The translations under genes and the position numbers were made by a program. A DNA stretch of 64,000 nt from Fragilaria crotonensis (lineage: Eukaryota; Bacillariophyta; Fragilariophyceae; Fragilariales; Fragilariaceae): positions 62,001 to 126,000 of the forward strand of contig JAKSYS010000052.1 of NCBI GenBank assembly GCA_022925895.1, written 5' to 3'. Below, in pieces: positions 7,041 to 42,477 of the stretch. Below the pieces are notes generated by a model. It did not search any database, had not been told where the DNA came from, and was given only the letters and a program-made list of their open reading frames with translations. The stretch's first letter is position 1. Every line of letters begins with the position of its first letter.

Positions 7041-7361
7041 TTGCAGCTAGGTTATTCGATGGGTGTTGTTGTTGGCGGCGTCCCGTGGGTTGGATTTAGC
7101 CATTCGTCACAACTACATAGTTTTTTTGAGGCGGACACAAATTTCAATCTAACACAAAACCAGAATCTGATTTGAGTATGAACGTATGAACGATACGGTG
7201 CGCAGTGCACTGTGTAGGATTGCAGTGATGGGGTGTCGCATTGGACAGAAACCAAGAATAATCTTGATTATACATGGACATCGAGTTTTTGGACTATTCG
7301 AAGGCAATTTTGATTCTACGAACTGTAAGCAATTTGGCCAAAAGCCACAGACGCCGCCCAC

Positions 7362-16900: not shown

Positions 16901-17023
16901 ATTGATGGCAACTCCGTCGTGAAACTTGCCGCCGATTTGCAAGTTTCGCAAGAATTTGCTCGCAAATCCCGGACTGGCATCTGGCGCTATGGTGATATTG
17001 GAGATGATGATGATGAAGAATAA
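13973..17023 (+). CDS. SND1: Tudor-SN (staphylococcal nuclease domain-containing protein 1, SND1/p100)
   Basis: Four exons, 13973-14145, 14233-14337, 14415-15483 and 15557-17023, joined by GT-AG introns of 87, 77 and 73 bp; phases fit exactly and give 937 residues, close to the roughly 900 of the family. The product has four tandem staphylococcal-nuclease-like folds (first around VAKVKSVLSGDTVVLLG; others around LKCVIEYVFDGSRFR, GTVVEVLTGDTVSIL and LKAVVEFVFNGARFRMFIP). A Tudor domain follows (GKAVAALFDDGSGKAWYRAK ... VLFIDHGNTASVP), inserted in a split fifth SN fold that resumes near the end (GIWRYGDIGDDDDEE). SND1 is a conserved cytosolic and nuclear protein that binds methylated proteins and RNA, acting in RNA processing and stress granules. 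The start is the first ATG, followed by an N-terminus of typical length. Convergent with the next gene, 147 bp apart. Confidence 0.95.
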
Positions 17024-19734: not shown

Positions 19735-21255
19735 ATGATGCTGTCACTGACGCTACCGATAGCTCTCCTCGTATCATCTCTGTTCAGGAGATGCGGAGCT
19801 GAGAAGGACTCGAATGCGTATCCATGGGGATCGAATCCAAACGTTAAGAACAAGATGTATTGGAAGGACTCACCAAACGTCCTCGAAGATCTGACCAAGT
19901 TCTCTGCTCTCTATATCAAAGTACACGGCTGTGTCTGGTCGGAATTTGGACTCGGAACGAGCTATGACGACGATGGTGAGAACCATGATGGAGATGGAAA
20001 TTGGTACATGAGCCGCACTCAGCCCTTTCGGGCGAATGCCGCCTTTAGCTTGTACGGGACACTTAGGGATGACGTACACTTTGTTGGCGGTTGCAAGAAG
20101 GGGACCTACATCAATTCATTCTTCACCTATTTGGGTGCCGATACCATTGTCAAGTTGTTTGGATTGGGCGTTTCCGCATTTCCGGATGCTTCCTATGGAT
20201 CGAACTACTGCTATGAGTACCAGGACAATTCCGGCAGTAATAACAAAAACGGAAAGGACCGACGCGATCTCAAGAGCGGGGACAATAACAAGAATGCGGA
20301 TACAATGTCCACCACAATGGGCTGCGCCGCGGACGGGTCATTTGCAAATGCAAAATTCCTGGGGGATGATTGCGACGGCAAGTATTTCCTCAACATTACT
20401 GACTCGTTGAAAAAATACAATTCCGCCATGAAGAAAGTCGGTTGCCAACAAATTTGGAACTACCACAAGGACCACACTGGCAGTCGTGCCCTTGGTCAAA
20501 ACTACAACGACGATCAAATCACCACAACCTACGGGTCGATTGCGGAAAAGCTCCTCCTCACGTCCTTCGCGTGCGACTTGAATCTGTATCCCGAGGCATG
20601 TCCCAATCCATATGGGCTGAAGGCCAAGTACACAAAGAAAATGAATTCGGCCGCCGCCGCAAGTAGAAGAGCTTCCAGTCGCTCCTTTGCCAACGGCTTT
20701 GTTGCAGGTGCTTGGCAGAATCCACTCCTTTTCTTCTCCTGGTTCTTTTTGGTGATTGCTATGTTGCTCGGTGTCTATGCGTATGGAGTGAAGAACCGAC
20801 GATATGTTCAGAAAGAAGGAGGGGGCGTCCGCGGGTTGACCAAGGTTGCATGGAGCGATATGAGAGGCAAGGTGGTGAAGGGCACTGCCAAAGCCCTCTC
20901 TTGCGACGGACCGGAGTCTCGAAAATCAAGAACATCCACGAGGACAAAGGGTCAGAAAAAGGCGAGCAAGAAGTCCAAGAGTGGTAGCCAAATCAGCAGC
21001 AAAAAGGAGAGAGATGTCGAGAGCAACGTTGATGGCGGGGCCACGGATTTTGTTATCATGCCGTCCGAACGAAATCAAGCGACTGGCTCCTCTTCAAAAC
21101 GTCCTGAAAAAACCCAGAAAATGGGTTTTTTGCAATCGATTCGCAGACCGAGGAGCCAGAGTGAGAATGACGATTATTCCGACGCGGGGGGTGCGGAAGA
21201 ACGATATAGTCCTGCGAAAGCGAGACAAGACAAAGACGGCTTAATGAGGGGCTGA
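19735..21255 (+). CDS. Type I membrane protein with signal peptide and basic cytosolic tail, unknown function
   Basis: A single ORF of 506 residues. It opens with a signal peptide (MMLSLTLPIALLVSSLF, then RRCGAE), followed by a luminal domain of about 310 residues with paired cysteines, Tyr/Trp-rich blocks and Asn/Lys/Asp low-complexity inserts (SGSNNKNGKDRR, KSGDNNKNAD). One membrane span (LLFFSWFFLVIAMLLGVYAYGV) comes next. The last about 140 residues are strongly basic and Ser-rich with likely phosphorylation patches (SRKSRTSTRTKGQKKASKKS). The layout matches the divergent neighbour on the minus strand, so the pair may have come from an inverted duplication, although sequence similarity is low by eye. 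Two in-frame ATGs begin the ORF. No known catalytic motif; role unknown. Confidence 0.78.
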   Translation: MMLSLTLPIALLVSSLFRRCGAEKDSNAYPWGSNPNVKNKMYWKDSPNVLEDLTKFSALYIKVHGCVWSEFGLGTSYDDDGENHDGDGNWYMSRTQPFRANAAFSLYGTLRDDVHFVGGCKKGTYINSFFTYLGADTIVKLFGLGVSAFPDASYGSNYCYEYQDNSGSNNKNGKDRRDLKSGDNNKNADTMSTTMGCAADGSFANAKFLGDDCDGKYFLNITDSLKKYNSAMKKVGCQQIWNYHKDHTGSRALGQNYNDDQITTTYGSIAEKLLLTSFACDLNLYPEACPNPYGLKAKYTKKMNSAAAASRRASSRSFANGFVAGAWQNPLLFFSWFFLVIAMLLGVYAYGVKNRRYVQKEGGGVRGLTKVAWSDMRGKVVKGTAKALSCDGPESRKSRTSTRTKGQKKASKKSKSGSQISSKKERDVESNVDGGATDFVIMPSERNQATGSSSKRPEKTQKMGFLQSIRRPRSQSENDDYSDAGGAEERYSPAKARQDKDGLMRG

Positions 21256-21688
21256 ACAGCTCTCTATGTCAAACCCAACCCCGAACGTACTTTAGCAGTA
21301 CCAGTACCTGGTACCAGTAGTAGATTTCCCTGTATTCTGTGGATTCATCATTCATTACAGTACCTAATCCTACCATGCACTGTACACTACAAACTACAAC
21401 ACGTACCGGTGCTCGTACAATAGTACTCGAGCACTCGACTACCGGAAGTAGCTACTGTTGTTATTTGTCATAGCTCCAAACGGGTTCTGCAAGTGCGAAC
21501 CTCCGATAAAAATAGACAGCATCCAAAAACTCTGTGTCTCAGCCCGTATGCATACAAACCTCGTATGTGACATACCCCAGTCCACTCAGACAATTCTCAT
21601 GCACAAAACGCACTGCGAGTTGTATCCTTGTATGTGCGTGCATCACGTACGTCCTGGTACATGCATAAACATTGGCAGCGCAACAGCA
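21256..21688. other. GTAC-rich intergenic spacer
   Basis: The stretch 21285-21440 is dominated by GTACC/GGTAC and AGTAC words. The rest carries no convincing ORF. Confidence 0.4.
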
Positions 21689-22640
21689 ATGACAACACAA
21701 CAACATCGACAACAATTTCTTTTGGCCCAAGTTGCATCCTTTGGGGACAAGTCATCGCTCATCAACCATTCTAAGAGCATCCCCACCCCTGGCTCTATAT
21801 TTACTGTTTCTCCGGAAATCTTATATTTGTAAGGGGACAATTTTGTCCAAAATGCTGTCACCGGTTGGGCCAATATCCTTATAAATAGCTCCCGATGGGC
21901 TCTATATTTAAGTTAGGGAGCGATTTTTCACCAATTTTGCTGAAGAATAGCTCCCCACCGTAAATTTAGCTCCCCTCCCTTTTCCCTGTTTGATTCATTG
22001 GATTCATGATTCGACCCATTGGATTCAATACTTTGTAACATGGATTCCAACGACGATTTCAGCGTGACTGACGCAATTTGGTGTTCCATCTATGTCTTCG
22101 TTTTCTTGCAGATACGCTTGCACCAATAGAGTTTGACAGTGTTGGCATTGACGCTCGCCTACTACCAGTTGCTTTCCTCATGGGAATGACCATGGTTCTG
22201 TCTTTCAGTATGTACTTTTTGAGGCAATAGAGGCGACCAATAGAGGGTAAATGTAGAGGTTGACATCGATTGATTCCGTGTTGCCAACAAAAAAAACAGC
22301 TCGTGCTAGAAAAATTGAATTGAACGTGCAATCGAAGGGGCGCGGCGCTATTTCAAAATGAGATCTGCAAGAAAATCTCCCTCTAGCGGTGCAAGAAAGA
22401 CACCTCAATATGACCTAAAATAGGTTTCTAAAGGCTCTATACCAAAATGTCCATCTTAGAAATAGAGCCAGCGGTGGGGATGCTCACATGTACAATTCTG
22501 ATTTTGTGATGCTGGTGTATCCGATGGACGAATCACCGGAGGCAGCTGTCACATCGATGGCGACTCGAATTCCACATTACTTGGAGGTCTTGCGAAAGGA
22601 GTTTTTTGGAACCTCAACTTCTCAACTCATGTGGTCGTGA
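21689..22640 (+). pseudogene. Possible short host ORF split by a MITE
   Basis: From ATG 21689 the plus strand reads MTTQQHRQQFLLAQVASFGD, then KSSLINHS, right up to the left end of the MITE at 21775. Directly after the MITE, from ATG 22488, another coding-like ORF runs 50 codons (VMLVYPMDESPEAAV ... PHYLEVLRKEFFG) to a TGA at 22638-22640, where transposase sequence begins. The two pieces have the composition of ordinary protein and flank the insertion exactly, suggesting one small gene interrupted by the MITE and cut off by the next transposon. No family recognised; that they were once joined is inference. Confidence 0.35.
21775..22485. mobile_element. 711-bp MITE with about 24-bp terminal inverted repeats
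   Basis: The left end starts GAGCATCCCCACC and continues CTGGCTCTAT. The right end (22462-22485) is its reverse complement with one mismatch. Inside there is no coding sequence, several GGCTCTATAT-like copies of the terminal word, and an A/T-rich middle. This is a non-autonomous DNA transposon. Flanking target duplications could not be recognised (left flank CATTCTAA, right flank ACATGTAC), so the superfamily is open. Confidence 0.75.
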
Positions 22641-25600
22641 GGTCAAGGCCGGACAGATGTCACGTCATTTTTCCCATTACCCCCAGTGTTCTGTTGATAT
22701 TGAAGGCTCACGAAAACGTCCAGCCAGTAACCACGCCAGACGCAAGAAGCGTAGAAAGCGATTACAGGATACAACAGCAGACCCCACAGATATCGACTCC
22801 GATGGTGTTGACTCTGATCATCACCCTAGGCAGTTGCATCATCGGCGTTCTTCTCGCCGCTACGTTTTCCCAGTTTCGAGGAATGACAGTCATGGCCTCA
22901 CCATCACCACGCCTGAACAACATGGTGAGGTTACCGACTGGTGTGGTACCGCATCAGAGAACCCATGTGAAGACTTCCCTGTCCTGGATGACGAAGCGAC
23001 ACCCACTGTCTTAGGCGAAGTCCACCAAGAAGATGCTCCTGATTCCTCGATTCGCGAGTATGAAACAACATCCTCCACGGAAGAATCTGAGGACGAAGAT
23101 GCTCCTGACTCTTCCATGCTGGTTGCTTATCAGGAGCACATCGATTCCGTCAACGACAATGGTCTCAATCTTTCTCTATTTTCCCGTGAGGAGAAGGTTC
23201 AGATTGATCTTCTTCAAACACTTAGCACCCTCGGTGCCCCAATGAAGGCATACGAGGCTATTATGCAATGGACCAATCGTTCTGTTCGCAGCGGTCACGT
23301 TTTCCGTGACACTGCAATCACGTCTCGAAAGACAGTATTGTCAAGGGTAACAAAGCGTCTCAACAGAGATAGGCTGATCCCAGTATGGGAGACACTTTAC
23401 CTTCCTTATTCTGACGTGTCAGTTAGAGTTGCTTATTTCAGCGCATCAGCTCTTTTTGCTGACCTTTTGTCCTGTCGTCATCTTAATGCTGACACAAACT
23501 ACATATTTGACGGTGATTGGAATCCCGACCACGATCCATATGCAGTTCCCAATGGTAGTGTAATCGGAGATTTAAACACTGGTCGATCGTATCTCAAAAC
23601 CCCCAGCTCCCTTTGCAAGAACCCACATGATATGTTGATTGCATGTCCTTTGGCAATCGACAAGACAATATGTGATGTTGGTGGAAGCGGCCGTTTGCCA
23701 ATGGAACCCATTACAATGCAGTATGGGCTCATGCAACATGATGTTCGGAAGAAACCTGAGGCAATGTGTGTTTTGGGGTATATCCATCCCTTAAAAAAAG
23801 GATCTTCAGCCAGCAGAACCTGGTGTTGCTGTGGAACTCGCCCCAAATGCTCCTCTTCCCATGTACAAGAGATGTACCAACGCAACATGGAAAGTTAATG
23901 AGTATCACATGCAAATTGACTTCATCCTCCAACAATCAGGCTTTCTTTCACTGCAAGAGCGGGGCATCAAGTGGAACATACAGTACAGGGGGAAGTCGTA
24001 CCCCACAGTTCTCCACCCCTTTATTCCTTTAATAATAGGGGACACAGAGGGTCACAATGCACTTTGTGGTCATTACAAGTCTCGCACCGGTGGTGTCGCA
24101 CAGTTATGCCGAGCTTGCGAGTGTCCCACAATGAAAAGCGGGTGGTCAAAGGGTCGGCAGTTTGCAAAGAGGAAGCCCCTGGCGATCAACAGACTTGTCC
24201 ACGCCAAGAGTTTTGATGTTCTGCAATCAAAATCTCAGCACATGCTTGTAAATGCGTTTGACAAGGTCCGATTTGGAGCGCATTCTGATCGTGGTATCTT
24301 CGGTGCCTGTCCTGGCGAGATCTTACATCTTGTGTTACTTGGTTGGTTTAAGTATGTTGTCAAATCCTTTTTCAAACAAATTGGCCAGACTAGTGTGTCT
24401 GGCAGGAAGTACAGTCGACTCTGTCAAGACATAGCATCACAGCTGGTAAGACAGAGTGACCGCAACATTCCACGTACAACAACAAATGACTTTTCCTCGG
24501 CTTCCAACATCCCAGGCCACGAATATGCTGGCATTCTCCTGATCATGCTCCTCGCTTTTGAAACCACCCGCTATGGAGAGGTTTTTGATAGGGCAAGGGC
24601 ATCAGCTGTCCAAGGTGGTCAGGTAGACAAGCATCCCGGTCATGACAACTTCATTGCCGATTGGAAGCTTCTCCTTTCCTCCCTGTTGGAGTGGTGGGCA
24701 TGGATGAAGCAACCACAGATTGACCGTCGTTGCGTGAAGAGGTCAATTTATGCAACATCATATCTATTGCGATTGCTAAAGACTGTAGCACCTCGACATG
24801 ATGGCATGAAGAACAATACTGTGAAGATGCACTTGTTCTTCACATGGCAGAGGACATCGAAAACTTTGGGGTTCCTGAGATATTCAATAGTGCGTATGCT
24901 GAATCTGCACACATCCCAATCGCCAAGAAGACCGTCAAGAACACACAGAAGCGTAATGAAACTTATGAGATTCAGGCCGCACACCGCTATGCCGAGAACT
25001 TGGCCATCTCACATGCCAATCGACAGGTTGCCACCGAAGTTACCATACAGAAAGACTTCATCGGTGAAGGAAACAGCGTTCGCCGACCATGGATTGGAAA
25101 GTCCTATTCCATTTCCACAACTCCCCTTGGCGTTCCCCAATGTTCATGGCGATCCAATGACAGGAAGAAAGCAAACGAAGTTCCGCCTCAGCTTATAATC
25201 GATAAGCATGTTCTGCAAACCATGGTCGACTACTTGCTCCCGTCTGTGGAACCTCCTACCCTTGCATGTCAGACTGAGTATACCTGCCCGAAAGGTGTAC
25301 TGTACCGTGCTCACCCCAAGTATGATGACAAGCCCTGGTACGATCATGCCCTTGTGGACTGGGATGATGTTGCCACCCCAGCTAGAATTCTCTCCATTGT
25401 CAACCTTCATAACCTGAAACCAAACTGCCAAATCAAGTTCCCCCATCAATCTGCATTCATCCCAGAACCAGGATTGTACATCATCATGCAATCTTATGAT
25501 GCCATTGACACTGTGGCGGAGAAGGCAGCCAAGTTGGCTGCAAAGGAGCTTTCCATGCATGTTTCTCCAAGGAAGCGCCGTCGCAAGAAGCAACTACGCA

Positions 25601-25953
25601 ACCAAGTTGCAGCCAGAGTCACACAAGCAGCAGATGCAGCTGAAGTCATGGAGGAGAAAGATCCTCCCATTTTCAAGTCATATAGGCTATCGCTGGTTCC
25701 TGAGTCATGGCACTTGCCAAAACTGTATATCATCCAAGTGGATTCCATAGTGGGACCAACTGTTGTCATCACCGACTTATCACGTAATTATGGGATGCAC
25801 AATGCATGGAGCATCACTCATCCTTTTTGCCCATACATCTTCATGACCCGCCGCCGTGATCAATGGGCAGACAATTGGACATCTTTCATCGACTGGCAGT
25901 CTGAGAAAACGATTCTCGATCAAGTAGCTGAGAGCTCCGAAGAGGAAGACTGA
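22606..25953 (+). mobile_element. Large DNA-transposon transposase, frame-broken
   Basis: The protein runs through three frames: 22606-23898, then 23831-25198, then 24844-25953. The N-terminus has a C2HC-like finger (CGREVKAGQMSRHFSHYPQC) with no ATG upstream, so the 5' end may be truncated. Acidic linkers follow, then a core with IIGDTEGHNALCGHYKSRTG, the paired-cysteine CRACECPT, and RGIFGACPGEILHLVLLGW. These blocks are ones I associate with large transposases in diatoms, roughly CMC/Plavaka-like; the superfamily is not certain. The second shift lies near 24835, where the conserved HLVLHMAEDI reading needs one more base in CACTTGTTCTT. The last frame adds VNSAYAESAH-like NSAYAESAHI, a basic KRRRKKQLRN patch and an acidic tail. 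This copy cannot encode one continuous transposase. It is convergent with the accessory genes on the other strand. Confidence 0.7.
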
Positions 25954-26165: not shown

Positions 26166-27104
26166 TTATTGCATGTTATCACCCATCCGTTGCCCACAAT
26201 CATGAGCAATGATGCCATCCCCCCTGGTGACAACACGATCACCATGACTCCCTTGCCAATCACCATGCCAGCCCCTCTTCCTATCATTTGGAGAATCATG
26301 GTGTGTAGAACGATGTTCTTGTCCTCCACGGAAGTAACCATCATTCGAAGGACGACGACGTTCATGTCCTTGTTGGAAGCCATCAGTGTGAGGATAATGG
26401 GAAACCCTGTCAGTGCAAAAGTCATTCCATCCTCTCTTCCCATCATTCGGAGAGGGATATTCCTGGCCTCTGTTCTGCAAGTTATCATACCAATCATTTG
26501 GGGGATAACGACGTTCATGTCCATGTTGAAAGCCGCCGTTGTGAGGATAACCGGAAACCCTGTCAGTGCAAAAGTCATTCCACCCTCTCTTCCCATCATT
26601 CAGAGAGGGATATTCCTGGCCTCTGTTCTGCAAGTTATCATACCAATCATTTGCGGGACGACGACGTTCATGTCCATGCTGGAAGCCACCGTTGTGAGGA
26701 TAACGGGAAACCCTGTCAGTGCAAAAGTCATTCCATCGTCTCTTCCCATCATTCGGAGAGGGATATTCCTGGCCTCTGTTCTGCAAGTTATCATACCGAT
26801 CATTATTCGGAGGACGACGACGTTCATGTCCTTGTTGGAAGCCGTCAGTGTGATGATAACGTGAAACCCTGTCAGTGCAAAAGTCATTCCATCCTCTCTT
26901 CCCATCATTTGGAGAGGGATATTCCTTGCCTCTGTTCTGCAAGTTATCATACCTATCATTTGCGGGACGACGACGTTCATGTCCTTGGTGAAAGCCGTCA
27001 TCGCGAGCGTCACTCTCAATAGAACTGTCATCATCTGGAACATCGATCACGAGCCGCCCTCCCATCAATTCATGTCCACGTCCTGGTGTCAAGTCAAGTA
27101 TCAT
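26166..27104 (-). CDS. Tandem-repeat protein (51-residue repeats) within the transposon block
   Basis: A 312-residue ORF from ATG 27104. After an acidic leader (VIDVPDDDSSIESDARDD) it consists of about 4.5 repeats of 51 residues with the pattern GFQQGHERRRP-NDRYDNLQNRGQEY-PSPNDGKRGWNDFCTD-RVSRYPHTD. The DNA repeat is 153 bp, with one unit of 156 bp, so every unit keeps the frame; substitutions between units are mostly single residues. The composition is Arg, Asp, Asn, Gly and His, polar and without hydrophobic core, suggesting a disordered nucleic-acid-binding or condensate-type protein; that is inference. Its ATG overlaps the stop of the preceding ORF in the same direction as ATGA. No known family. 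It sits between the transposase and the other accessory ORFs. Confidence 0.65.
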   Translation of the reverse strand: MILDLTPGRGHELMGGRLVIDVPDDDSSIESDARDDGFHQGHERRRPANDRYDNLQNRGKEYPSPNDGKRGWNDFCTDRVSRYHHTDGFQQGHERRRPPNNDRYDNLQNRGQEYPSPNDGKRRWNDFCTDRVSRYPHNGGFQHGHERRRPANDWYDNLQNRGQEYPSLNDGKRGWNDFCTDRVSGYPHNGGFQHGHERRYPPNDWYDNLQNRGQEYPSPNDGKRGWNDFCTDRVSHYPHTDGFQQGHERRRPSNDGYFRGGQEHRSTHHDSPNDRKRGWHGDWQGSHGDRVVTRGDGIIAHDCGQRMGDNMQ

Positions 27105-27478
27105 GCCTCATCATCAGTATAGCTGTGGTTACTCCATGATGAATCGTCATCCCCCAGAATGCCGTTGCCACAGATGACATCGTCGCCCACAGCCTCATCC
27201 ATATCATCGTTTCCCAGCGCATTGGCGTGAAACAGAGAAGAATCCCCGAAAGCCTTACTCTTCCTGGCGATGGGGATCGAAAACAAATCCACAACATCTT
27301 CCTTGTCACGACATCCACCGATCGCGGGAGAAGTCAACAAGCCACCAGGCCCATCATGTCGTTGTTGTCGTTGTCGCCGCTTCGATCGCCTTCGCCTGAT
27401 GGCTTCCTTCCTGAAAGCCATACGCGCGCCATATGCAACAACAGAACCTTTTTGCCGCAAAAAATGATCCATACACAT
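27101..27478 (-). CDS. Basic/acidic tail ORF of the transposon accessory gene
   Basis: This ORF overlaps the end of the 27354-28340 ORF in another frame and looks like its natural continuation. It begins with a strongly basic stretch (FRKEAIRRRRSKRRQRQQRH), possibly a nuclear signal, then an acidic end (ALGNDDMDEAVGDD ... GDDDSSWSNHSYTDDEA). The switch between frames lies near an A-run at about 27445. The stop overlaps the ATG of the repeat protein. It may not be a separate gene. Confidence 0.4.
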   Translation of the reverse strand: MCMDHFLRQKGSVVAYGARMAFRKEAIRRRRSKRRQRQQRHDGPGGLLTSPAIGGCRDKEDVVDLFSIPIARKSKAFGDSSLFHANALGNDDMDEAVGDDVICGNGILGDDDSSWSNHSYTDDEA

Positions 27479-28340
27479 GTTTAGTCCGCTCCATCACCGA
27501 TGTGCCATGACGAATCACCCGACCATCCCAACTGATAAGAACTCCATGGGTCAGCCTAATAGCAACTCCATGGAACATCGCACCCTTCTCCCCACCCATA
27601 CCGTCAGGCCTCTTGCCGTAAACGTTAGGGAGAATAAAGAACCAATTGCGAGTACTTCCAGGTTCATCCTCAGTCCAAATGGAAAAACCTTGGGACGCAT
27701 CGTTGACATCATAGTGAGTTGAATTCGAAAGGTCAACACTGACATCCATTGTATGGGAGATTCGACAAAACATGCAAACGCCGTTCATTCCCCCCTGAGG
27801 GGGAGGAATGTCACCATCTTCTTCAGCATCCTGCATAATCCGAAGAATTCCTGGGATGGTTACAGCTGCTAGCCTGGAGCATGCAACGACAGCCCCTTTC
27901 AATAACCGCTGCTCCCGCTTTGACCTCGTGGAAGTCACATACTGCTTTCTTGTGATGTTGTCCTTCATGATGCGTGAACCCAAAGGAAACATGGAACCAT
28001 GATCACCAAGCCCGTTCCTCGCAGAGTGCTTGTTTCGGCCTTGCACAGTACTTGCGTGATCCCTGATATTGGATAATAGCTTCTCGGCACCGCTTCCCAA
28101 GTGTGGCAAGTAACGGACCAGCACCACAGACTCACGAGATAGAGCAACGCAATGCTTAGTGGGATCTTTAGCGTCTGCCTTCGAAGGTGGACGTCTTATC
28201 TGGATGGCCACCCGGATGTCAATATCACCATCCTCGGGATCTATGATCAAGGTTTCATTTGGGTCAATTTTGCGGTGAAGATAGCCATGAGCATAGTGAC
28301 GGCACCCGCGTCTCGCAGATTTCGAACTCATGAGAGCCAT
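27354..28340 (-). CDS. Transposon accessory protein with HxD...H pattern (possible Fe(II)/2OG dioxygenase-like fold)
   Basis: A 328-residue ORF from ATG 28340; the last about 33 residues are probably out of frame. The middle contains CMFCRISHTMD, then STHYDVNDASQGFSIWTEDE, NWFFILPNV, and a second strand block GVAIRLTHGVLISWDGRVIR followed by HGTSVMER. Residues H209, D211 and H278 make an HxD...H triad spaced as in double-stranded beta-helix oxygenases that use Fe(II) and 2-oxoglutarate, with an Arg or Lys after the last His. In fungi, TET/JBP oxygenases of that fold ride on KDZ transposons, so a transposon-borne DNA-modifying oxygenase is plausible here. That is inference: the fold is not proven, and other members of the cupin class or none remain possible. 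The preceding ORF (28355-29173) seems to lead into it across an A-rich slip site near 28365. Confidence 0.5.
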   Translation of the reverse strand: MALMSSKSARRGCRHYAHGYLHRKIDPNETLIIDPEDGDIDIRVAIQIRRPPSKADAKDPTKHCVALSRESVVLVRYLPHLGSGAEKLLSNIRDHASTVQGRNKHSARNGLGDHGSMFPLGSRIMKDNITRKQYVTSTRSKREQRLLKGAVVACSRLAAVTIPGILRIMQDAEEDGDIPPPQGGMNGVCMFCRISHTMDVSVDLSNSTHYDVNDASQGFSIWTEDEPGSTRNWFFILPNVYGKRPDGMGGEKGAMFHGVAIRLTHGVLISWDGRVIRHGTSVMERTKHVYGSFFAAKRFCCCIWRAYGFQEGSHQAKAIEAATTTTTT

Positions 28341-28354
28341 CCTGTAAACACGCC

Positions 28355-29173
28355 TCAGGTGTGCCTTTTTTTGGCACCATCATGTTGTTCTCCATTGATG
28401 AAATCGGGGGGTAGACATGGACCCAATTCATCAGGACACTGATATGCTGACATGACTCGCAGCGTCGGAAGGGTTCCATTCCAGGACAAATTCATGACAG
28501 GTTCTTCTGGAATGGGATTCAACTGGAAATTCCCTTCACCTCGCGAGATCTTGAATTTCCAGAATGGTTGCCCATCCCAGAGTCGAGAAACATATCCGCC
28601 ATCAGCAAACCGACTGTCACGATCACCATTCTTCACTACCCGTAGCCACGATGTGTCCATGGGAATAACCTCATTTGCTTTCCCAATACTCCGGTTCCGC
28701 CGATCACGGTGGCAATAATATGTTGCACCATCAGGAACCACAGCAAGAAAGGCACAAAACCTCCAGTCAAATTCTGCATCCAAATATTCTGCTCTTTCAG
28801 CTCTGAACTTGACCGGTGTGTCAACAGTCTCCTTACCAGTGACACGCCTTGGGGCATTCAAGACACGGGACAACACAGCGTCCATCATCACTATCTCAAG
28901 ATAGTCACGTTTCAAGAAAACCTTGCCATCCCGGTGGTCACTGTTGATTTGATCACACATCTCACAATCCACATTCCCCACACCGTTTAGTCGCTGAAGT
29001 GCCCAGAGTATTGATACAACTCTTGTCTTGATTATGAATGCATTGACATCAGTTCCACAATTGTCACATCCAGACGGACACTCCGTAACACCTTGAAATG
29101 TTTTGAAAAGGAGTTCAAATTGTTCTACATCCTGCTTTGGTAGACACTTCGAAATCGTGCGTGCCATCTGCAT
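28355..29173 (-). CDS. Cysteine-containing accessory protein of the transposon block
   Basis: An ORF of 272 residues from ATG 29173. Near the N-terminus it has two clustered Cys groups (CPSGCDNCGTD and CEMCDQINSDH) that could bind a metal. A central region DAEFDWRFCAFLAVVPDGAT and a C-terminal part rich in Trp and Pro follow (SWLRVVKNGDRDS, RLWDGQPFWKFKISRGEG, NPIPEEPVMNLSWNGTLP). The stop is only 14 bases before the next ATG, and the frames differ by one base across an A7 run, so this and the next ORF may once have formed one protein of about 600 residues. Its start lies 175 bp from that of a divergent gene. No family recognised. Confidence 0.5.
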   Translation of the reverse strand: MQMARTISKCLPKQDVEQFELLFKTFQGVTECPSGCDNCGTDVNAFIIKTRVVSILWALQRLNGVGNVDCEMCDQINSDHRDGKVFLKRDYLEIVMMDAVLSRVLNAPRRVTGKETVDTPVKFRAERAEYLDAEFDWRFCAFLAVVPDGATYYCHRDRRNRSIGKANEVIPMDTSWLRVVKNGDRDSRFADGGYVSRLWDGQPFWKFKISRGEGNFQLNPIPEEPVMNLSWNGTLPTLRVMSAYQCPDELGPCLPPDFINGEQHDGAKKRHT

Positions 29174-29348
29174 CTTTGACGGATGGAACTAGTATTGTAT
29201 ATACAATATATTGAAATTTGGTTGTGGATGTGTTTGAAAACATGGCGCAGCAACACAAATTTAATAAGGAGCACGAGTGCAGCATGTAGCAGGAGAGCAT
29301 TATAAAATCACTTTTGTGCAACACCGAATCACACAGCAGAGTGAGAAA
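29174..29348. promoter_or_regulatory. Compact bidirectional promoter region between divergent transposon genes
   Basis: The 175 bp between ATG 29173 (minus) and ATG 29349 (plus) include the AT-rich GTATTGTATATACAATATAT around 29193-29212, a near-palindrome that could serve as a two-way TATA element. Regulatory role inferred from layout. Confidence 0.4.
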
Positions 29349-31040
29349 ATGGCAGGGAGGAAGAGGAGATCGCGCAAAGACAATGAAGGAAATGAAGAGA
29401 ATGAAGACCCAAATGAGGATAGGAGGGACAAGAGGCAAGAATGGCAAGAGAAACAAGGAGATCAGGTAGGCACAGCACAAGGAAGAAATGAGCAAGAGCC
29501 AAACGCACCAAATCAAGACCAGGCAGATCATTCGAGAAGCCAATCTCCCGGTAGTGGAAATGCAGCTGATCACCACTCTCCATTTAGAGGTGGTCATCAT
29601 GCTTGGCACCGCTCTCCATCTAGAGGTGGTAATGAAGGATCTCACCAACATCAGCAAGGAATACAAGAGAGACAGCGGAACCAGCAAAATCAAGGGCGGA
29701 CTGATCACTCAAGAAGCCGATCTCCCACTGGAGCTAGTGGTAGCGCAACTGATCACCACTCTCCATTTAGAGGTGGTCTTCATGATCGGCACCGCTCTCA
29801 ATCTAGAGGTGGCAACCCAGGATCTCGACAATATCGACACAATCCTCATGATTGGCATCGACATAATTGTCAACCTGATCATCGCTCCTCTCCATTTAGA
29901 GGTGATGATCAGGTGCAGGACGACACTCCATTTAGAGGTTGTCCTGCTGACAGATTGTGGCAACGTCAACGTGAGCATGAATACCACCGTCGTCATCGGC
30001 GGGAAGGTGGTAACGCCAAATCTCTAGGACAATGGAAAAGTCGGAGGGATGAGGCTTCTTTGTCTGGAAGTGAATCCAGTTATGATTCAGGATGTTCCTT
30101 AACTGACGATGACAGTCCTCCATCTCGTCAATCAAGAGGACAAACTGGTGTGTATGATATAAAAAAGGCAATGTCATACAGAACTGCCCATGATAGCCAG
30201 AAGAAGCACATTGTTGAGAGAATTCAAGTTGTCATAAAGGGAATGATATCCAGGAAGATGAAGTTCATTACGAGTGAGGCAATGTTCAATAGAGCGATGA
30301 AGATTGTTTTGGAAACTGAAGAAACGGATGACGAGGAGGAATTTGTGAGGATATACAAGACATGTGTTGTTGGCAGCATCAATGGCAAGAGAAGTACCTG
30401 TGAGCAGGCAGGAGGGAGGATTGTCAAGGAACTACTTCGTCAACTTGATTATGCCGACGCAGATGATCTTAACCCACCTTACTCTATGCAGACACTTGTA
30501 AAATTGAGGCAAGGCAAACATGAACTTGACAAGAAAGCATTTTGGTGGTTCATTGGAGAGTTTCTGGCATGTGTGTTGGGAAAGAAAGTTTGGGGGAGAA
30601 AAAAGTACTTTTACAGGGTATCTGAAGCTGTCGTGGACAAGGGAAGTCAAGAACTTGTGGTAACAGTGTCTGATGAGGCTTTTGCTCTCCTCCTTTACGA
30701 GAATTACATTGAAAAATGGATTAGACGGTATCACGCAGAACGACGTGCCAAGAAGGCTGATACAAAGATCACGGGCAAATACACATCATCGGTAATGGAT
30801 CACTGCCTGTATGGAGGGTGGAGTGCGGAGGGAGTTGCGAGATTCAATGACTTGTCGATGCTTGTTGATAGGGACAGAAAGAGTGCTAACGCAAAGAAAG
30901 CTGAAGAAGAAGTGCTCCTTGCATTGAGGAGACAAAAGTTTGGATATCGTGTGGACAATGCCACTCTGAGAGACCCCGAGGAAGAAAGAGGGAGACGGCG
31001 TGCTATGCCTGAAGCAGTAGAGGCATTTTGTGAATTGTAA
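29349..31040 (+). CDS. Arg/Ser/His-rich repeat protein with helical C-terminal domain, transposon-associated
   Basis: An unbroken ORF of 563 residues from ATG 29349 (the frame is open further upstream but without ATG). The N-terminus is basic and acidic by turns (MAGRKRRSRKDNEGNEENED). Residues about 65-215 hold degenerate repeats around HHSPFRGG and HRSPSRGG with RSRSP motifs, like SR/RS domains. The C-terminal 270 residues are helical (DIKKAMSYRTAHDSQKKHIV ... FLACVLGKKVWGRKKYF) and end with YGGWSAEGVARFNDL, followed by LVDRDRKS, a block I associate with accessory ORFs of diatom transposons. It is likely a DNA- or RNA-binding partner of the mobile element; no catalytic motif. It is the only long ORF of the block without a break, so it may still be functional. 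Confidence 0.65.
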   Translation: MAGRKRRSRKDNEGNEENEDPNEDRRDKRQEWQEKQGDQVGTAQGRNEQEPNAPNQDQADHSRSQSPGSGNAADHHSPFRGGHHAWHRSPSRGGNEGSHQHQQGIQERQRNQQNQGRTDHSRSRSPTGASGSATDHHSPFRGGLHDRHRSQSRGGNPGSRQYRHNPHDWHRHNCQPDHRSSPFRGDDQVQDDTPFRGCPADRLWQRQREHEYHRRHRREGGNAKSLGQWKSRRDEASLSGSESSYDSGCSLTDDDSPPSRQSRGQTGVYDIKKAMSYRTAHDSQKKHIVERIQVVIKGMISRKMKFITSEAMFNRAMKIVLETEETDDEEEFVRIYKTCVVGSINGKRSTCEQAGGRIVKELLRQLDYADADDLNPPYSMQTLVKLRQGKHELDKKAFWWFIGEFLACVLGKKVWGRKKYFYRVSEAVVDKGSQELVVTVSDEAFALLLYENYIEKWIRRYHAERRAKKADTKITGKYTSSVMDHCLYGGWSAEGVARFNDLSMLVDRDRKSANAKKAEEEVLLALRRQKFGYRVDNATLRDPEEERGRRRAMPEAVEAFCEL

Positions 31041-31455
31041 TTGTAACAAGAACAATGACATGCTCACGATGTAGAATTTTGACATTAAAGGGACACATTG
31101 CACAGAGACAGCACTACTGGGAGTACATCAGTACAATCAGATGGTGTGTTGTACGGTGAATGTGACAGATGGAATACGAAGAAGAGAGCGTAACATAGAT
31201 AACACATGATCAAAGATGTGACATACTGTACAGTCAGTGTGACAGAGCTGTACCACAATCGAAAAATATTAGTCCTTTGTACCATTTTGTGATACGTAAT
31301 TTGTAGGGGAGTACTATTATGTTCAGGTGTACCAAAAATTGATACACAAAAAAACCATGGTACAAAAATGTACCGGACTCAAAAAAATATTTTACAGGTA
31401 CCACCATATGGTAGGTGTACAACCCGGAACCCTCTGAGGTGGTACGCTCAAGGGA
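31041..31455. repeat. Cluster of GTACC/GGTAC words, possible subterminal repeats of the transposon
   Basis: Between about 31245 and 31445 the word TGTACC or its complement GGTAC(A) occurs about eight times in both orientations, several next to A/T runs (TTTGTACCATTTTG, TGTACCAAAAA, TGGTACAAAAA). CACTA-like elements carry such subterminal repeats as transposase-binding sites. The motif is also common in intergenic DNA of this genome, which weakens the reading. Confidence 0.35.
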
Positions 31456-31761
31456 ATGACTGACTACGACAGTAAGCGAGGAATACTGGTGGACCCGATG
31501 GAACATCTGATGGAGTGTCAGATGGCGTACTGGATCTTAGTTCAGGTTGGAATGCTGTCAACAAAGGGAATTTGGAGTAGGGATGGAATTGAAAAGGAAA
31601 CATTGCTGGGTGTAGCAGATGTCCAATTAATCCACAAACACAGTGAGACTGATAGCCAGATTGAATTCCTTACGGTGTCCGTGCTGATGGAATCATTGAA
31701 GGCACACTCAATGACATATCCGACTGAAGAACACTTGGGGAAGGAGTTGTGTCTGGCGTGA
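31456..31761 (+). CDS. Short ORF of unknown nature
   Basis: 101 residues beginning MTDYDSKRGILVDPMEHLME, soluble, balanced in charge, no motif. The base texture matches the transposon block to its left. It could be a fragment of an accessory gene or chance; no relatives come to mind. Confidence 0.25.
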   Translation: MTDYDSKRGILVDPMEHLMECQMAYWILVQVGMLSTKGIWSRDGIEKETLLGVADVQLIHKHSETDSQIEFLTVSVLMESLKAHSMTYPTEEHLGKELCLA

Positions 31762-32470
31762 TGTTGTAAATCTCAACTTCTCGATTCGCTATTGGTTGGA
31801 GAGTTGGTTTGATCACCACCTGCCTGTGCCTGCCATAACGTTCGTACTTGGATGATCAAATGGAGTTCTTTCGATGCCAGACTTGATAGAATCCCGGAGG
31901 CGACAAGAAGGCTTCATGGAAGCCTTGACTGTACCAATGATGCAATGCCCAATGAATTACCTGAGAGTGCGTCGGCAATGCCCTGGTGCGGGAACAAATG
32001 AACTGATGTTGAGTTGTCCTGGCTCCATTAAGCCTATCAGTGGCGAGTGACTCAAGTCATAAACTTCAGTTCGAAGATGCTAAGCGAGCTCTGTTGGGTG
32101 GAGTCTGTGGTAATTTATTACGCCGTGAATCAGTTATTGTGAGTATCATTGAGTTCTTAGTTGCATGATCTGTTTCAGGATAACCAGGTCTTTCTAAGAA
32201 CAGAAAGAATGAGTAGGGAGTCAGGCGAGACCTACTACGCCTGTACGTATCACTGGTACTACAGTACTGGTATCTAGTACTGAGCGAGTACGTCGATCAA
32301 AGAGCGTTGGCGGCGAAAAAAGACCTGCATTCGCAGTGGTCTTGACACTTATTTCTGTCACGCACAAAATGTACACGCATGTACGACAAATTTTTTTGTT
32401 TTTCGAAGGTACACTTGCAACCCGCGTTTGGAGGTCGTACATGTAAAGTGTTAAAGTGTGAAGTTCTCCG
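31762..32470. other. Spacer between transposon block and retroelement
   Basis: No gene seen. GTAC palindromes cluster at 32240-32290 (TACTACAGTACTGGTA-like). Confidence 0.35.
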
Positions 32471-32714
32471 AGAATCCTATGGATTCCCAGAAGTCGCCTC
32501 AGCTGTACTGCACTGTCGAACGGTATGGCTGTGCACTACGGTAGTGTAACCACATAGCAACTACGTATAGGGCCGTAATGGTACTGTCGTATGTGTACTT
32601 CTACGAGTATGACGTAGTGACAGTAGCATATTGGGCGAAAAACGTAGTGACTATGACGTTTTTAGAGTATCCGAGGAGTCCAACGGATTCCCGGATGGTT
32701 CACTAAAGCACTGG
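32471..32714 (-). repeat. Split direct repeat B2
   Basis: Outer copy of the B repeat and 3' end of the element on the minus strand. It is nearly identical to B1; the main difference is a short indel near CACTACGGTAGTG. Confidence 0.85.
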
Positions 32715-32764
32715 CCTGAGGCTGTTGGGGACGGCGGACGGCGGGTGGGTTAGCAAAAAAAAAA

Positions 32765-33001
32765 ATCGGCAGATATCGCATCACCGATGTATTCAAATTG
32801 CTTTTTTGCAAAACAAGTGAGTGATTTCCATCAGGGAACAAGTTGTTTGCCCTCAACCGCGCTGCGGTCGAATGTCCTAGGGCCGTCAGTATGTCATTTA
32901 CGTAGCGACGAATGTTAGATAGACACTTGGGTACAAGTACTGCAATAGAAAGGAGTAGCATACTCGTCTACTGCTGCATTGGCTTAGAGTCTTATCTGCA
33001 A
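32765..33001 (-). repeat. Split direct repeat A2
   Basis: Second copy of the A repeat, lying between B1 and B2. It differs from A1 by a few substitutions and a 6-bp indel (ACAAGT present here). A 50-bp GC-rich spacer ending in a poly-A run separates it from B2. Confidence 0.85.
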
Positions 33002-33243
33002 GAATCCTATGGATTCCCAGACGTCGCCTCAGCTGTACTGCACTGTCGAACGGTATGGCTGTGGACTAGTGTAACCACATAGCAACTACGTATAGGGCCG
33101 TAATGGTACTGTCGTATGTGTACTTCTACGAGTATGACGTAGTGACAGTAGCATATTGGGCAAAAAACGTAGTGACTATGACGATTTTAGAGTATCCGAG
33201 GAGTCCAACGGATTCACGGATGGTTCACTAAAGCACTGGCCTG
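33000..33243 (-). repeat. Split direct repeat B1
   Basis: About 244 bp matching 32471-32714, with shared landmarks ATCCTATGGATTCCCAGA and GGATGGTTCACTAAAGCAC. It abuts A2 directly at 33000/33001. Confidence 0.85.
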
Positions 33244-33405
33244 CCCGTGTTGTCTGCTGACGCTGGTATACGCAGTGTAGCAGGGTTGGGGGCCATATCG
33301 TGCGGCGGCAGACAGCCGGAAAAAAGACAAAAAGAAAAATTTCTGTGTTTCAGTCGGGTTGTTATAATTGCGTTTCGCACGACAACGTAACAAGCAGCTG
33401 ACATG

Positions 33406-34047
33406 GTTTAAACCAGGGGTCGGTGAAGTTAAACTTTAACTATACTGGACTTACGCTGCCTTCAGCAGTTGCAACTTAGTACTGCGAAGTACGTATGGTG
33501 GGTTACTGGTACTGCAATACGCAATTCTCAGTAACTAGTCACCGGAAATACTTATGTTTTTTAGCCTCCAGTATTCAGTTATTTGTGAATTTCGTAGTTA
33601 ATTGCAGTTATACTGCAGACGGTACCAGTGGTGTAGTAGCATAGTAATCATTGCTATACATACGTACAGTACCCGAGTTTTGAGGGATTCTGGTGAGTTC
33701 CAACAGAAATCAGGGCATACGTCATCAATATCCACTTAAACTATGTTGCGAACACCAATCATTTCCTACGCATTTCTCTACGTATCCCTAGTACATAATT
33801 ACTCGGACCCACGACCAGCCAGTTACCCTTTAACTTAGTTAACCCCGCACTGTCTCAGTAGTATCCTACTGGACGTTGCAGTTTTTAGTTAAGTAAGCAA
33901 CAAGTTTCAGTAGTTAGTTAAGTCACTCGAGGAGTCACAGTAGTTGGTTAGTTAACTGTCGTGATTTCTTTAAAAGTTGGTCACTGCAGTTAACTAACTG
34001 CAGTTAACTGGTGGTCCAGTAACTTATTACCGACCCCTGGTTTAAAC
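33406..34047. mobile_element. hAT-type MITE (626 bp) with 8-bp target duplication, nested in the retroelement
   Basis: The element itself is 33414-34039. It begins CAGGGGTCGGT and ends ACCGACCCCTG, a hAT-style terminal inverted repeat, and is flanked on both sides by the identical 8-mer GTTTAAAC (33406-33413 and 34040-34047). Inside there is no ORF; near the right end a run of GTTAACTAACTGCAGTTAAC-like palindromes forms subterminal repeats. Eight-base duplications and the CAGGGG terminus are hallmarks of the hAT superfamily. It must be younger than the retroelement it sits in. Confidence 0.88.
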
Positions 34048-34391
34048 AGTTGGGTTGCTAAAACTCGTTTTAGTAAGACAACAAGACAGACATGTAAAAT
34101 GATAATGTGTGTCGGTACACTGGCACGTTTGCACGCTCGTCGTCGTCTTAGGCGTATGTACCGTTTTGATGGGCATGCGTTTTATTGTATGACATGCGTT
34201 TTCATATGCGTGATATTCGCAGCTCAATTCGATAATTTAGCGTAGTATACTAACGCTGGACCTTGCGGCATGCAGGCGAGACGAATGCGCTCGTCGGGCT
34301 AATTACAACACATGGTGTGGGCACCGAGGCGGCTCTGCTTGCTCGGGAATGCTAATACACATGCGAACGCTACCCGAAAGGGTGAATCTGA

Positions 34392-35633
34392 TTACACAAA
34401 ATTAGGTATTTCGCTTGTGTCGTTCACCGCGTCGTTTTGACGGCGGGAGGTGACGGCCAAATTGCGCAGGTAAGTCATGAATGCATTGCTTTTCCACCGC
34501 AACAAATACTTGATTTCCATCTCACTAAACCCTTTTGAATACAATAGGGTACACGCACCGACGCGTAGTGAGTGACTTGACCATAGACTAAGAGTAGCAT
34601 GGTGGGTGACAGGGTCAAGTTTGTACACGGAAGCGGCTGCGTGTCGGAGCGTCGCGTCGATGTCGACTGTTGTGATATTATAGACTGTTCCGTCCGTGCC
34701 TCGGTAGACACTCAAAGGTTGGATTGGCGATGCATTGGTCAGGCGTTTATGCCTCGCAAGTATGCGCATGAAATGCATGACAAAACAGAGGTGGATTGCT
34801 GTGGTTTTGGTGAATAATTTCCACTCTCCGTTTTGGCCATTTTTTTGTTCTTCGAATCGGAGTTTGAGTTTCCCGACTGTGAGCGGGTGAGCCAGTGCTT
34901 GCGCGAATGTTAGGGGGCCTGAATTTTCTGTGAAACATAGAACGTCGGACAGCGTGAACGCGTATGCGTTTTTGAAACGATTCATGTGGAACTTGTTGAC
35001 GGGCTTGTGGATGAGCTGTGTCTGTGCCCATTCAATGCCTCGGCAACCCGCATAAAGGTTACACAGTGTCCAGTTTACCATGGCGGCATTCAGACAACAA
35101 TCATCCTCATGGGAACTTGACAGGTTGGCGATGGCGAGATGCATTTCGACCGTAAATGGTTCACGTCGATTTGGGACCATTTCCCATCGTCGTTGTTCGG
35201 CGAGTACCTTTGCGATAGCAGGTGCCAAAGTTGTGTCGGCCGCTGAAACAAACCTGGGGTCAATTGGTCGGAAACGTCCCAAGAACGTTGCAATATCGTG
35301 TACGTAACTTGCAATCGTGCTCGACTTGATAGCACGGCAGTGCAACGTTGATCCCGTCGCCAGGTGAGTTGCATACATTCTTGCCAGTTGGAAATTTGCC
35401 CTTTCTTGCGGCTGGTTTTCGAGAAGCCAATCGTCCGTCATCTTCATATGATAACAGAACAAGAGGTAATGGAGTCGGCGGTTTCGAATCGTCCGAGCGA
35501 CTTTGGGAGAGGCGGGCTTGCTTGCCAGTGTACGGTGGACAGCCTGGACACCAGGCATGATAAGAGCTTGGGATGGGGCCGGAAAAAGCAGTAAGACTGC
35601 AGCCTCGGCTCCTTTAGAAAAATCTGTTGGCAT
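34392..35633 (-). mobile_element. Tyrosine recombinase region of the retroelement
   Basis: 413 codons with the family signature: a CRGIEW block, HSLRVGA, and a C-terminal RWKSNAFMTYLRN. This part looks whole. It distinguishes the element from LTR retrotransposons, which use a DDE integrase. Confidence 0.82.
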
Positions 35634-38318
35634 CGGGCAATGTGAGTGATGGGATCGGGGAAGGGTCGCGAGATAAAATCAGCGAGGTCGTTATCGGTTC
35701 CCGCGATGTGGGTACAATCAACTGTGAGCTCGGTTCGCTCGATCATGTCAGCATATATACTGACGAAAAGTTGCCCTCTCTCTGATTTTGCCGACGCTTT
35801 GTGTGCCCAGTTACACGATGGCGAGTTGTCAGACCGAATCAAAAGCTTGTGGAGGGGGCGGATATATTGTCCGTCAAATTGGAATCCGTTTTCGTGCCTC
35901 GTGATCGCTGCAGCGAGTTGGATTAAGGCAACAATAAACTCGAGGACGTTGATATGGACCTGTCCGCTTTGGAATCGTTGGCGGGTTTGTTCCGAACACA
36001 CTATATCGAACCAATAACAGAGTTCGTGGCAGTACGCTCCGCCTCCGATCCCACACGCATCGCCAAGGCTAGTGAACTGCGCGTCGCGAGGGATTACGTG
36101 CCCGATATTAATGGACCATGGCCGGTTCTTGTCAGCTAAAAGGGATCGAAGGTTTTGGAGTTTGAAGCGGGCTGACGCAGGAACTGGGAGAATTGTTTTC
36201 GTTTGCCATATGAGTGCAGCCATGTCTCGAGCAATCAGTGAGTCCAGGCGATGATGCAAGTGCTGTGGGAGTTGTTGGGACAGGTACTTGCGTTTGGATT
36301 GGCGCGAGTAGTACCCCTTTACTTTGTGGTATTGTTCCCGAATGGTTCGGCGCAATGCGTTTTGAAATCCAAAGAACATTGCACGACCTTTTCTGTTTGC
36401 TCGAGATGCATCGGCAAGTGTCCCATGCAATTTGGCAGCTTCGACTAGAGTGCATGATGTTTTTGTGCTCCAATCCTCGAGTGTTACCAGAATTGCTTCC
36501 CTCTTGTCATCGGGAAGTGCAAATGTGAGGTCGCGGTATTGAAATCCCACCTGACCACTCTCCTTATGTGCCCATGAACAGTTGCAAATTTGTCCCACGA
36601 TATTGGGTCGGGGATTCTTCCATCGGGATATCCCAGGATTTCATACAAGGCTATAACGCTTGCTGCTGCCGCGAGAGGCATGAAGTCAGATATGTCACCG
36701 TACATATTGTCATCAACGTGGTGGTCGTATGTTGGCGCCCGACGGCCCCCATTCTCGTCCATAACTCCTGTATTTATGGAGTCTGGGATTGCTATAGCAA
36801 ATGCGGCTTTCTCGGCCTCGGTTGCTGGGGGGGGCAAACTTGAATGTTGGGAGGTACTTCCTTGCTTGTTCTTGGGCCATGTCCGGCTGGTGGAGCCAGT
36901 AGTGTTGCGCGAGTTGTTGGCGGGCCCTCGCAATTGGTTCCCAGTTGGAGGGGCTTGTGTTGTCACCGAAGGTAAGTCCTGTGTTCATGACCAATGTGTG
37001 ATTGGAAATGGAACTGTGCATTGCAACTAACTGGGGGTGATATTTTAGACGTGGGAATGCACATTGAACGTCGTCATCACCAGTATGGCGGTCATGAGTT
37101 GGATAAGTGATGGCAAGATTCCATTGCCACACGCAGAAGTTCAAAAATGACTTGGCAAAATGGAGTTGCGGCTCATTCTTTTTGCTCGTCCAATCATTAA
37201 TGGCCATTGCTCCTGGCCAAGGTCGGAAGCTGCTGTCGGACAACGGTCTAGGCTTTCGTCTGGGATGAAGGACGTCGACGAGACCTTGTGGCGACAAGTG
37301 AGCATCTAATGCGAAGTGGATGAGTTGCGGGTCCATAATTAGGTGAGTCCCCGTTTGTTTTGCTTCACAATCGTTGAGGCATACACTTGTTGGTTATTCG
37401 TCACGGATTTATGATTGCCGTATTGCAGATACGCTTGGAAGTTCTCTTCCGTCGCTGACGAATTACACCGTGCTGGTGCTCCCAGCAAAAGTATACGACT
37501 TACGTCAGCATAGATGTCAGGGTCGACAATCAACTTAAGTTTTGCGAGGATTGCGGGGATGTCAAGGTGTGCGTTAACATGTGGCCCTCCGATCCATCGC
37601 ACCATTGTCGCTACATCTCCGTTAAAGTGAAGTAGACATGCCGACGTCATTGACTTCCAATCGGTACGAATGGTTGTTGTTGATTCCCAATCCTCTTGGA
37701 ATCCTTGCAAAGGTAAGAAGTCGACGGCGTCGTATTTCTTTCGCATCATCTGGAGCTGTCGCACTCGCCGAGATGCCTTTTCGAGGTACTTTGTGGCACG
37801 GCACGATAAAAACCACTTTTTAAAACAGGTAGCAAGACATGACGAAAACATTTTTGCGCGTAAAAGGAATGAGTGAGGGAGTCCTTACCAAAGGGTTGGG
37901 CGAGTTGAATTTGCACATTTGACGGAAGGGCAACTTTGGCAAAGGTGTCCAAACGTTTTGACGTCAGCTTGCCTTGCGTCCAGTTGTCGCTTAAGTTTGT
38001 GAGGCACAGAGCCTCGTTAACAATGCCTGTTGAATCGAGAGTCGGTGTCATAGTCTGCAAATATTCGGACGTGACCGGTACTGCGTCTTCGCTGGCAGTA
38101 TTGGTCGCGGCGCTTCGATCCGAATGGGGCATTGTGTTCGAGCCGGTGGAGCTTGGATCTGGGCCAATTTTCGTCACATTTTGGTGGATTGGGGGTTTTC
38201 CCCCCGCATCCGACCATAACATGGTGGTGAGTGGACAATCCTTTCGTACAGCACGTTCGTCGGCAAGGGAGTTCTGTGGTGTGCGATTGTATGTTCTTGA
38301 TGTTGGTGGTATCTGCAA
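35444..38318 (-). mobile_element. Reverse transcriptase and RNase H region of the retroelement (broken)
   Basis: Shows an RT active-site block of the HVDDN type and, downstream, an RNase H domain with GDACGIGGGAYC, INVLEFIVAL and RSDNSPSCNWAHK, as in DIRS-order elements. The region is broken in a few places. Confidence 0.75.
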
Positions 38319-38754
38319 GCGGAAATTAGGGACGAAGAAAACAGGTACTATATAATTGCGGTTAGTTATACTTGGAGGAGGCAGTTAAGCAGGGAGATTG
38401 GTTGCTGCGCGAGGGCCCGAACGGACATTACCTGGTGGGTTGGCCCAGTTGGCCGCGTCTGCGTGCCATGAAACAAGATTGTGGTTGGACACCCATTCTT
38501 TCAATTTATCTTTCAAGTCTCGGGAACTTGGGTTAGTTGGTTGGGGAAGTGATAGAAGGCGCATGTTGGAATGGTGCAGCTGCGACCTTCAAAAGCACTT
38601 CTGCAACAGAGGATTGTGAATTGGTTTGCACGAGTCGGGTGAGGGAAAATTGCACCCGGGTGGGGTAACTTTGTGGTGCCGGCGATGTATGAACGAAGAC
38701 AGTTTTCCCGGCAGAGAGGCTGCTGCGGTTGGACTTCCGTTCGGGGTCACGCGG

Positions 38755-42246: not shown

Positions 42247-42477
42247 ATCGGCAGATATCGCATCACCGATGTATTCAAATCGCTCATTTGCAAAACAAGT
42301 GAGTGATTTCCATCAGGGAACAAGTTGTTTGCCCTCGACCGCGCTGCGGTCGAATGTCCTAGGGCCGTCAGTATGTCATTTACGTAACGACGAATGTTAG
42401 ATAGACACTTGGGTACTGCAATAGAAGGGAGTAGCTTACTCGTCTACTGTTGCATTGGCTTAGTGTCTTATCTGCAA
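42247..42477 (-). repeat. Split direct repeat A1 of the tyrosine-recombinase element
   Basis: About 230 bp matching 32765-33001 in the same orientation, with shared landmarks CGGCAGATATCGCATCACC and CCGCGCTGCGGTCGAATG. It forms the 5' end of the element on the minus strand. Confidence 0.85.

Follow-up and report, generated by a model that had tools for sequence, protein, structure and literature searches.

The window analysed here is a 64,000-nucleotide stretch of Fragilaria crotonensis DNA. It holds a frame-broken transposase gene on the plus strand and, facing it, a series of minus-strand reading frames, one of which, ORF2, encodes the protein under study (Table 1). The two sets of frames lie tail to tail, with the end of the transposase ~210 nt from the end of ORF3. 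A first-pass annotation of this DNA had placed H209, D211 and H278 in the 328-aa product of ORF2, and all three residues are found there; the Asp-to-His spacing is 67 residues, as it had counted, and the motifs STHYDVNDASQGFSIWTE and VIRHGTSV are both present.

Table 1 Features of the transposase and oxygenase-like genes and of the adjoining reading frame. Residue numbers refer to ORF2.
Feature	Coordinates	Strand	Basis or remark
Broken DDE transposase, putatively CMCT-type (CACTA/EnSpm/Plavaka-like), three frames	22606..25953	+	motif order by eye
ORF3, tandem repeats of ~51 aa (153-nt units)	26166..27107	-	reading frames, repeat scan
Probable native continuation past the core, basic then acidic, in a different frame	27101..27446	-	codon usage
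ORF2, protein under study	27354..28340	-	328 aa; stop-to-stop open to 28379
Putative double-stranded beta-helix core, residues 164-297	27450..27851	-	two-anchor CcTET similarity; no Pfam match up to E 10
K287 codon, proposed 2-oxoglutarate-binding basic residue, H278+9	27480..27482	-	Arg in CcTET
H278 codon, proposed distal iron ligand	27507..27509	-	pairs with CcTET distal His (chain residue 376, counted); PF13640 distal-His column
D211 codon, proposed iron ligand	27708..27710	-	pairs with CcTET D328
H209 codon, proposed iron ligand	27714..27716	-	pairs with CcTET H326
ORF1, probable N-terminal part of the ORF2 gene	28355..29173	-	272 aa; reaches ORF2 across an A7 run by frame break or intron
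Divergent ORF, no family, RS/RGG-rich N-terminus	29277..31040	+	587 aa; GTG start set mechanically

Codon usage, trained on 3686 codons from eight presumed host stretches, scores ORF2 at 0.01 in its own frame and at -0.22 to -0.36 in the other five, and by this measure ORF2 looks like a real coding frame. The frames of ORF1 and of the 27101-27446 block are favoured as well, and these two and ORF2 look like one gene in shifting frames. The final ~30 residues of ORF2 (27357-27446) are probably misframed, because codon usage there shifts to the frame of the ORF at 27101-27478. For ORF3, codon usage does not decide between two frames. Within it, at 26350-26997 (minus strand), a 153-nt tandem repeat is present in 4.2 copies, whose ~51-aa units are rich in R, H, D, N and Y.

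Candidate GT..AG introns at the first two joints of this gene, at about 28370 and 27450, are weak. A better candidate, GTAAGG..CACCAG at 27258-27083, could link ORF3 to the 27101-27446 block. Programmed frameshifting was weighed as a cause of the breaks at the A7 runs, but the transposase shift is +1 and the ORF1-ORF2 shift is -1 with no good slippery pair; mutation, assembly indels or introns are preferred. Other presumed host genes in the window are also split over frames (14317-17023, 55681-57329), and introns or assembly indels are therefore possible causes of the breaks. Since both the transposase and the oxygenase-like gene are broken, the present copy of the element is probably dead.

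The transposase occupies three frames, 22606-23898, 23795-25198 and 24802-25953, and its TTG start at 22606 was assigned mechanically by the ORF tool. Across these frames PLAIDKT, IIGDTEG, CRAC and AESAH follow in order, as read by eye and without statistical control. The first frame break, at about 23796, falls at an A7 run and the second, at about 24835, inside the H(3)H motif, which is visible only if that break is read across. In the available text of PMC12730594, CMCT transposases (CACTA/EnSpm, Plavaka, ESTA) carry D, D, C(2)C, H(3-4)H and E in this order, and the series found here, which has H(3)H, fits the CMCT clade. This class is supported rather than demonstrated; a Pfam search of the transposase, joined pieces included, returned no match.

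The first-pass annotation had set ORF2 within a transposon block. The broken transposase does adjoin it, but no terminal inverted repeats above background enclose both genes: a search of 20901-22606 against 31040-34390 gave 28 pairs of 14-nt arms with at most 2 mismatches, compared with 11-38 in five shuffled controls, and none of the 28 pairs is flanked by a target duplication of length at least 3. As these searches found no element ends, the status of the oxygenase-like gene as a passenger rests on adjacency.

Several other features surround the pair. Directly before the transposase, at 21775-22485, lies a 711-bp MITE-like stretch with 29-nt inverted repeats that are 90% complementary and with no clear target duplication. 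Beyond ORF1, the divergent ORF at 29277-31040 points away from it; its first ATG lies near 29349, ~175 nt from the ATG of ORF1, and its first half contains SR/FRGG repeats. Further on, 32465-42416 (minus strand) contains a tyrosine recombinase ORF (Phage_integrase E 0.0082, below cut-off). Inspection by eye adds an ORF resembling RNase H and a DD-like stretch. Direct repeats 96% identical lie 9482 nt apart in this region, which may be a DIRS-like block. Towards the end of the window are a 178-nt tandem repeat (59799-60798; 5.6 copies, 95% matches) and, at 61486-63772 (minus strand), large ORFs in two frames with a weak SAP match below cut-off, which by eye resemble another DDE element.

The triad alone is uninformative, because it occurs in ORF2 at chance level. 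The loose pattern H-x-[DE]-x(40-80)-H appears in 66.2% of 2000 ORF2 shuffles and in 28 of the 59 window ORFs (stop-to-stop, at least 150 aa), and the strict pattern H-x-D-x(45-75)-H-x(8-10)-[RK] in 23.6% (23.55) of 2000 shuffles and 8 of the same 59 ORFs. By alignment counts, a basic residue follows the distal His at +9 in ORF2 (K287), at +9 in CcTET (Arg), at +10 in NgTET (Arg) and at +10 in P4H (Lys), a basic residue at one given position being not rare by chance. What rises above chance, as far as sequence comparison can tell, is the sequence surrounding the triad when set against CcTET of Coprinopsis cinerea.

For this comparison the CcTET core sequence was taken from PDB alignments (7vpn/8jkk). 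With two anchors and no gaps, at residues that the first-pass annotation had named beforehand and over block ranges chosen after the alignment had been viewed, ORF2 scores 44 against CcTET. This was reached by 1 of 20,000 shuffles, by none of 406 decoy ORFs (best 35) and by none of 45 bacterial P4H/AlkB oxygenases (best 30). Smith-Waterman alignment without anchors picks GVLISWDGRVIRHGTSVMERTKHVYGSFF, which pairs H278 with the distal His and K287 with the Arg; its score was equalled or beaten by 159 of 5000 shuffles and by 10 of the 406 decoy ORFs. Anchoring on H278 alone was repeated over seven ranges; depending on the range, the score was reached by 0 to 26 of 3605 His sites in decoys and by 0 to 151 of 2000 shuffles, the shortest range being the weakest. 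The distal block taken separately was matched by none of the 3605 decoy sites and by 3 of 3000 shuffles, while the proximal H209 block is weak by itself: across four ranges it was matched by 137 to 449 of 2000 shuffles and by 6 to 15 of 217 decoys with HxD.

When gaps are allowed, the residues that pair with CcTET are H209 and D211, then the Gly at His+9, followed by a Pro and by the distal HG. The two proteins (CcTET: PDB 7vpn, 8jkk) share H, D, G at His+9, the distal HG and, nine residues past the distal His, a basic residue. They differ in Asp-to-His spacing, 67 residues in ORF2 and 48 in CcTET (counted), and in the basic residue itself, Lys in ORF2 where CcTET has Arg. Gly331 and Asp337 of CcTET correspond to D214 and S220, so that these AG-type residues are not kept; the ORF2 motif, HYD, is HxD and not the HxE of the TET/JBP PE type. 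Other references add little. NgTET supports H278 weakly: it puts this residue first among the 15 histidines of ORF2, yet 61 of 3605 decoys and 877 of 3000 shuffles do equally well. PiuC and P4H (prolyl hydroxylase) do not favour H278, and in the mean over 20 PF13640 references it ranks fourth among the ORF2 histidines. Most of the signal is thus carried by one reference, CcTET.

Searches of Pfam, PHROGs and NCBIfam with ORF2 returned no match, though Tet_JBP, PF20515 and PF13640 are all present in Pfam, and the Tet_JBP profile PF12851 set against ORF2 gave none up to E 10. In a PDB sequence search the sole match over the core was an unrelated p-aminobenzoate synthetase component (E 0.8 and 0.16), and CcTET was absent from the matches up to E 10. 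Structure prediction, one of the checks that had been proposed for the fold, gave no usable model: AlphaFold2 run without homologues gave pLDDT 30.2 for ORF2 and 30.8 for the trimmed core.

Among four bacterial oxygenase profiles, three fail to align the ORF2 triad, PF13640 being the only exception. In the unfiltered PF13640 HMM, H278 falls in the His column and K287 in the Arg column, an outcome shared by 34 of 2000 shuffles with at least that score. ORF2 scores 0.6 bits with this profile; as good a score was obtained for 102 of 1000 shuffles, for 3 of 58 window ORFs and for 57 of 348 ORFs from bacterial loci. With hhalign against the PF13640 family, 356 of 400 shuffles score at least as high as ORF2, and 10 of 11 AlkB controls also miss E 0.01. 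Because known AlkB proteins are mostly missed by this profile too, the bacterial-oxygenase profile tests have little power.

The first-pass proposal of a beta-helix oxygenase thus stands in part. It gains a specific CcTET likeness at the very residues it predicted, and profile libraries and structure prediction lend it no support. Taken together, the ORF2 core probably adopts a double-stranded beta-helix oxygenase fold, which we regard as supported, short of demonstrated.

The collections searched for homologues consist of viral or prokaryotic sequences, and a lack of matches in them is poor evidence for absence from algae. Protein and degenerate-pattern searches of viral contigs found no genuine homologue, and the 6 pattern loci examined were judged chance; pattern searches of prokaryotic genome contigs gave 2 loci, both chance. 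ORF2 found nothing genuine in a phage collection, where two weak tail-protein places appeared, and the transposase found no real homologue in a plasmid collection. PF12851 was found in 0 of 299 bacterial genomes and PF20515 in 0 of 398, the control genomes being silent as well; a TET-like probe run against phages picked up one phage oxygenase. Unannotated proteins of a similar kind, bearing a string such as ISWDGRxIRHCTS, presumably occur in diatom genomes, and the string ISWDGR had no match in the open-access literature.

The nearest precedents are fungal. As far as the available text of PMC12730594 goes, TET/JBP genes occur in fungal DNA transposons of 11 lineages, among them Plavaka and EnSpm; the PU, AG and PE types are spread over KDZ, EnSpm, Plavaka, ESTA, hAT, Harbinger, IS3EU and Helitron elements (Kojima 2025, PMC12730594). 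The same text describes CcTET as a close relative of transposon-borne AG-type TETs, with Asp337 essential for 5mC activity and Gly331 and Asp337 aiding 6mA recognition, gives HHpred E values of 1.4 and 19 for PE-type proteins, and proposes methylation escape by transposon-borne TET/JBP, without experimental validation (PMC12730594). Judged from that text, the present locus shares with the fungal elements a transposase, here putatively of CMCT type, that adjoins a gene whose proposed core has the TET-like HxD...H motif, and a likeness too low for ordinary profile searches; it differs in that both genes are broken and that element ends and target duplications were not found (PMC12730594). From the portion of PMC11244446 available, the Plavaka giant repeats of Amoebidium also resemble it, with a Plavaka-type transposase beside other genes and tyrosine recombinases near; here, in contrast, the tyrosine recombinase seems part of a separate DIRS-like block, and no repeated-gene cluster is seen in the window. 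Among the matches listed in the open-access literature, no report of a TET-carrying DNA transposon in diatoms or other stramenopiles appeared.

We consider the best explanation, which has perhaps an even chance of being correct, to be a decayed element of CACTA/Plavaka-like type that carries a TET-like oxygenase with a proposed anti-silencing role. The decayed DNA transposon would span about 22.6-31 kb and carry the oxygenase-like gene tail to tail with the transposase, the TET-like core being encoded by the middle part of that gene (27450-27851, minus strand). In such a core H209, D211 and H278 would bind iron and K287 would bind 2-oxoglutarate; in this superfamily both kinds of binding follow from the beta-helix fold, if that fold is right. 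The enzyme of an intact copy may oxidise methyl groups on the DNA of the element, or on chromatin or the transposase, and this oxidation would loosen host silencing. An anti-silencing role is suggested because of the fungal TET precedent and because, in the accessible parts of two reports, transposons are methylated in a diatom (PMC12344493; also PMC9998398). The available text of the second adds that in Phaeodactylum the loss of DNMT5a is correlated with a depletion of methylation and with overexpression of young transposable elements (PMC9998398). A DNA- or histone-modifying role for the ORF2 protein is one that we infer, and it lacks conserved counterparts of the residues linked in CcTET to 5mC and 6mA; DNA as the substrate of an ORF2-type enzyme is conceivable, leaning towards doubtful.

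The substrate question bears directly on a reading that we rate as quite improbable, namely that ORF2 is a real beta-helix 2OG oxygenase that modifies a protein or metabolite and was carried by the element or is merely adjacent to it. PF13640, which we take to be the family holding prolyl-hydroxylase-like enzymes, is the only one of the four profiles to align H278 and K287 correctly, which would suit such an enzyme; the PiuC and P4H references give nothing, however, and the two-anchor CcTET score of ORF2 lies above those of all 45 bacterial P4H/AlkB proteins. The lack of conservation at the 5mC and 6mA residues (roles as given in the available text of PMC12730594) speaks for this reading too. 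A more radical alternative is that ORF2 is an unrelated transposon-borne protein and no oxygenase, with both the triad and the CcTET likeness arising by chance. The triad alone is indeed at chance, there is no library match and no model, and most of the signal comes from one reference; yet the likeness falls exactly on three residues named beforehand and is rare in shuffles and decoys, and we regard this alternative as unlikely.

Whether the two genes belong together is a separate matter. The oxygenase-like gene may be a host gene, or that of a second mobile element, which never travelled with the transposase. The genes are on opposite strands, no terminal repeats enclosing both rose above background in the ranges compared, and the DIRS-like block follows at about 32.5-42.4 kb, all of which agree with this. 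Against it, the gene ends are only ~210 nt apart, codon usage is alike, and both genes are frame-broken while some presumed host ORFs are open (7329-9926, 865 codons). Co-mobility of the oxygenase-like gene with the transposase is what we infer, and separate histories seem to us rather unlikely.

Returning to the decayed element with a TET-like passenger, a wider proposal can be made tentatively, with the chances rather against it: the window may hold a dead copy from a non-fungal, algal CACTA/Plavaka-type family that has its own highly diverged TET/JBP-like counter-silencing oxygenase, acquired by independent capture or by spread between kingdoms. TET-carrying DNA transposons are already known from fungi, and what would be new, if our reading holds, is such an element outside fungi. 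Should the fold claim fail, an unnamed gene beside a transposase remains. If the reading is true, the use of TET-like enzymes by transposons is not confined to fungi; the pairing of transposase and TET in a second, unrelated host group would argue for a repeatable transposon strategy, and a diatom host would allow the anti-silencing idea to be tested.
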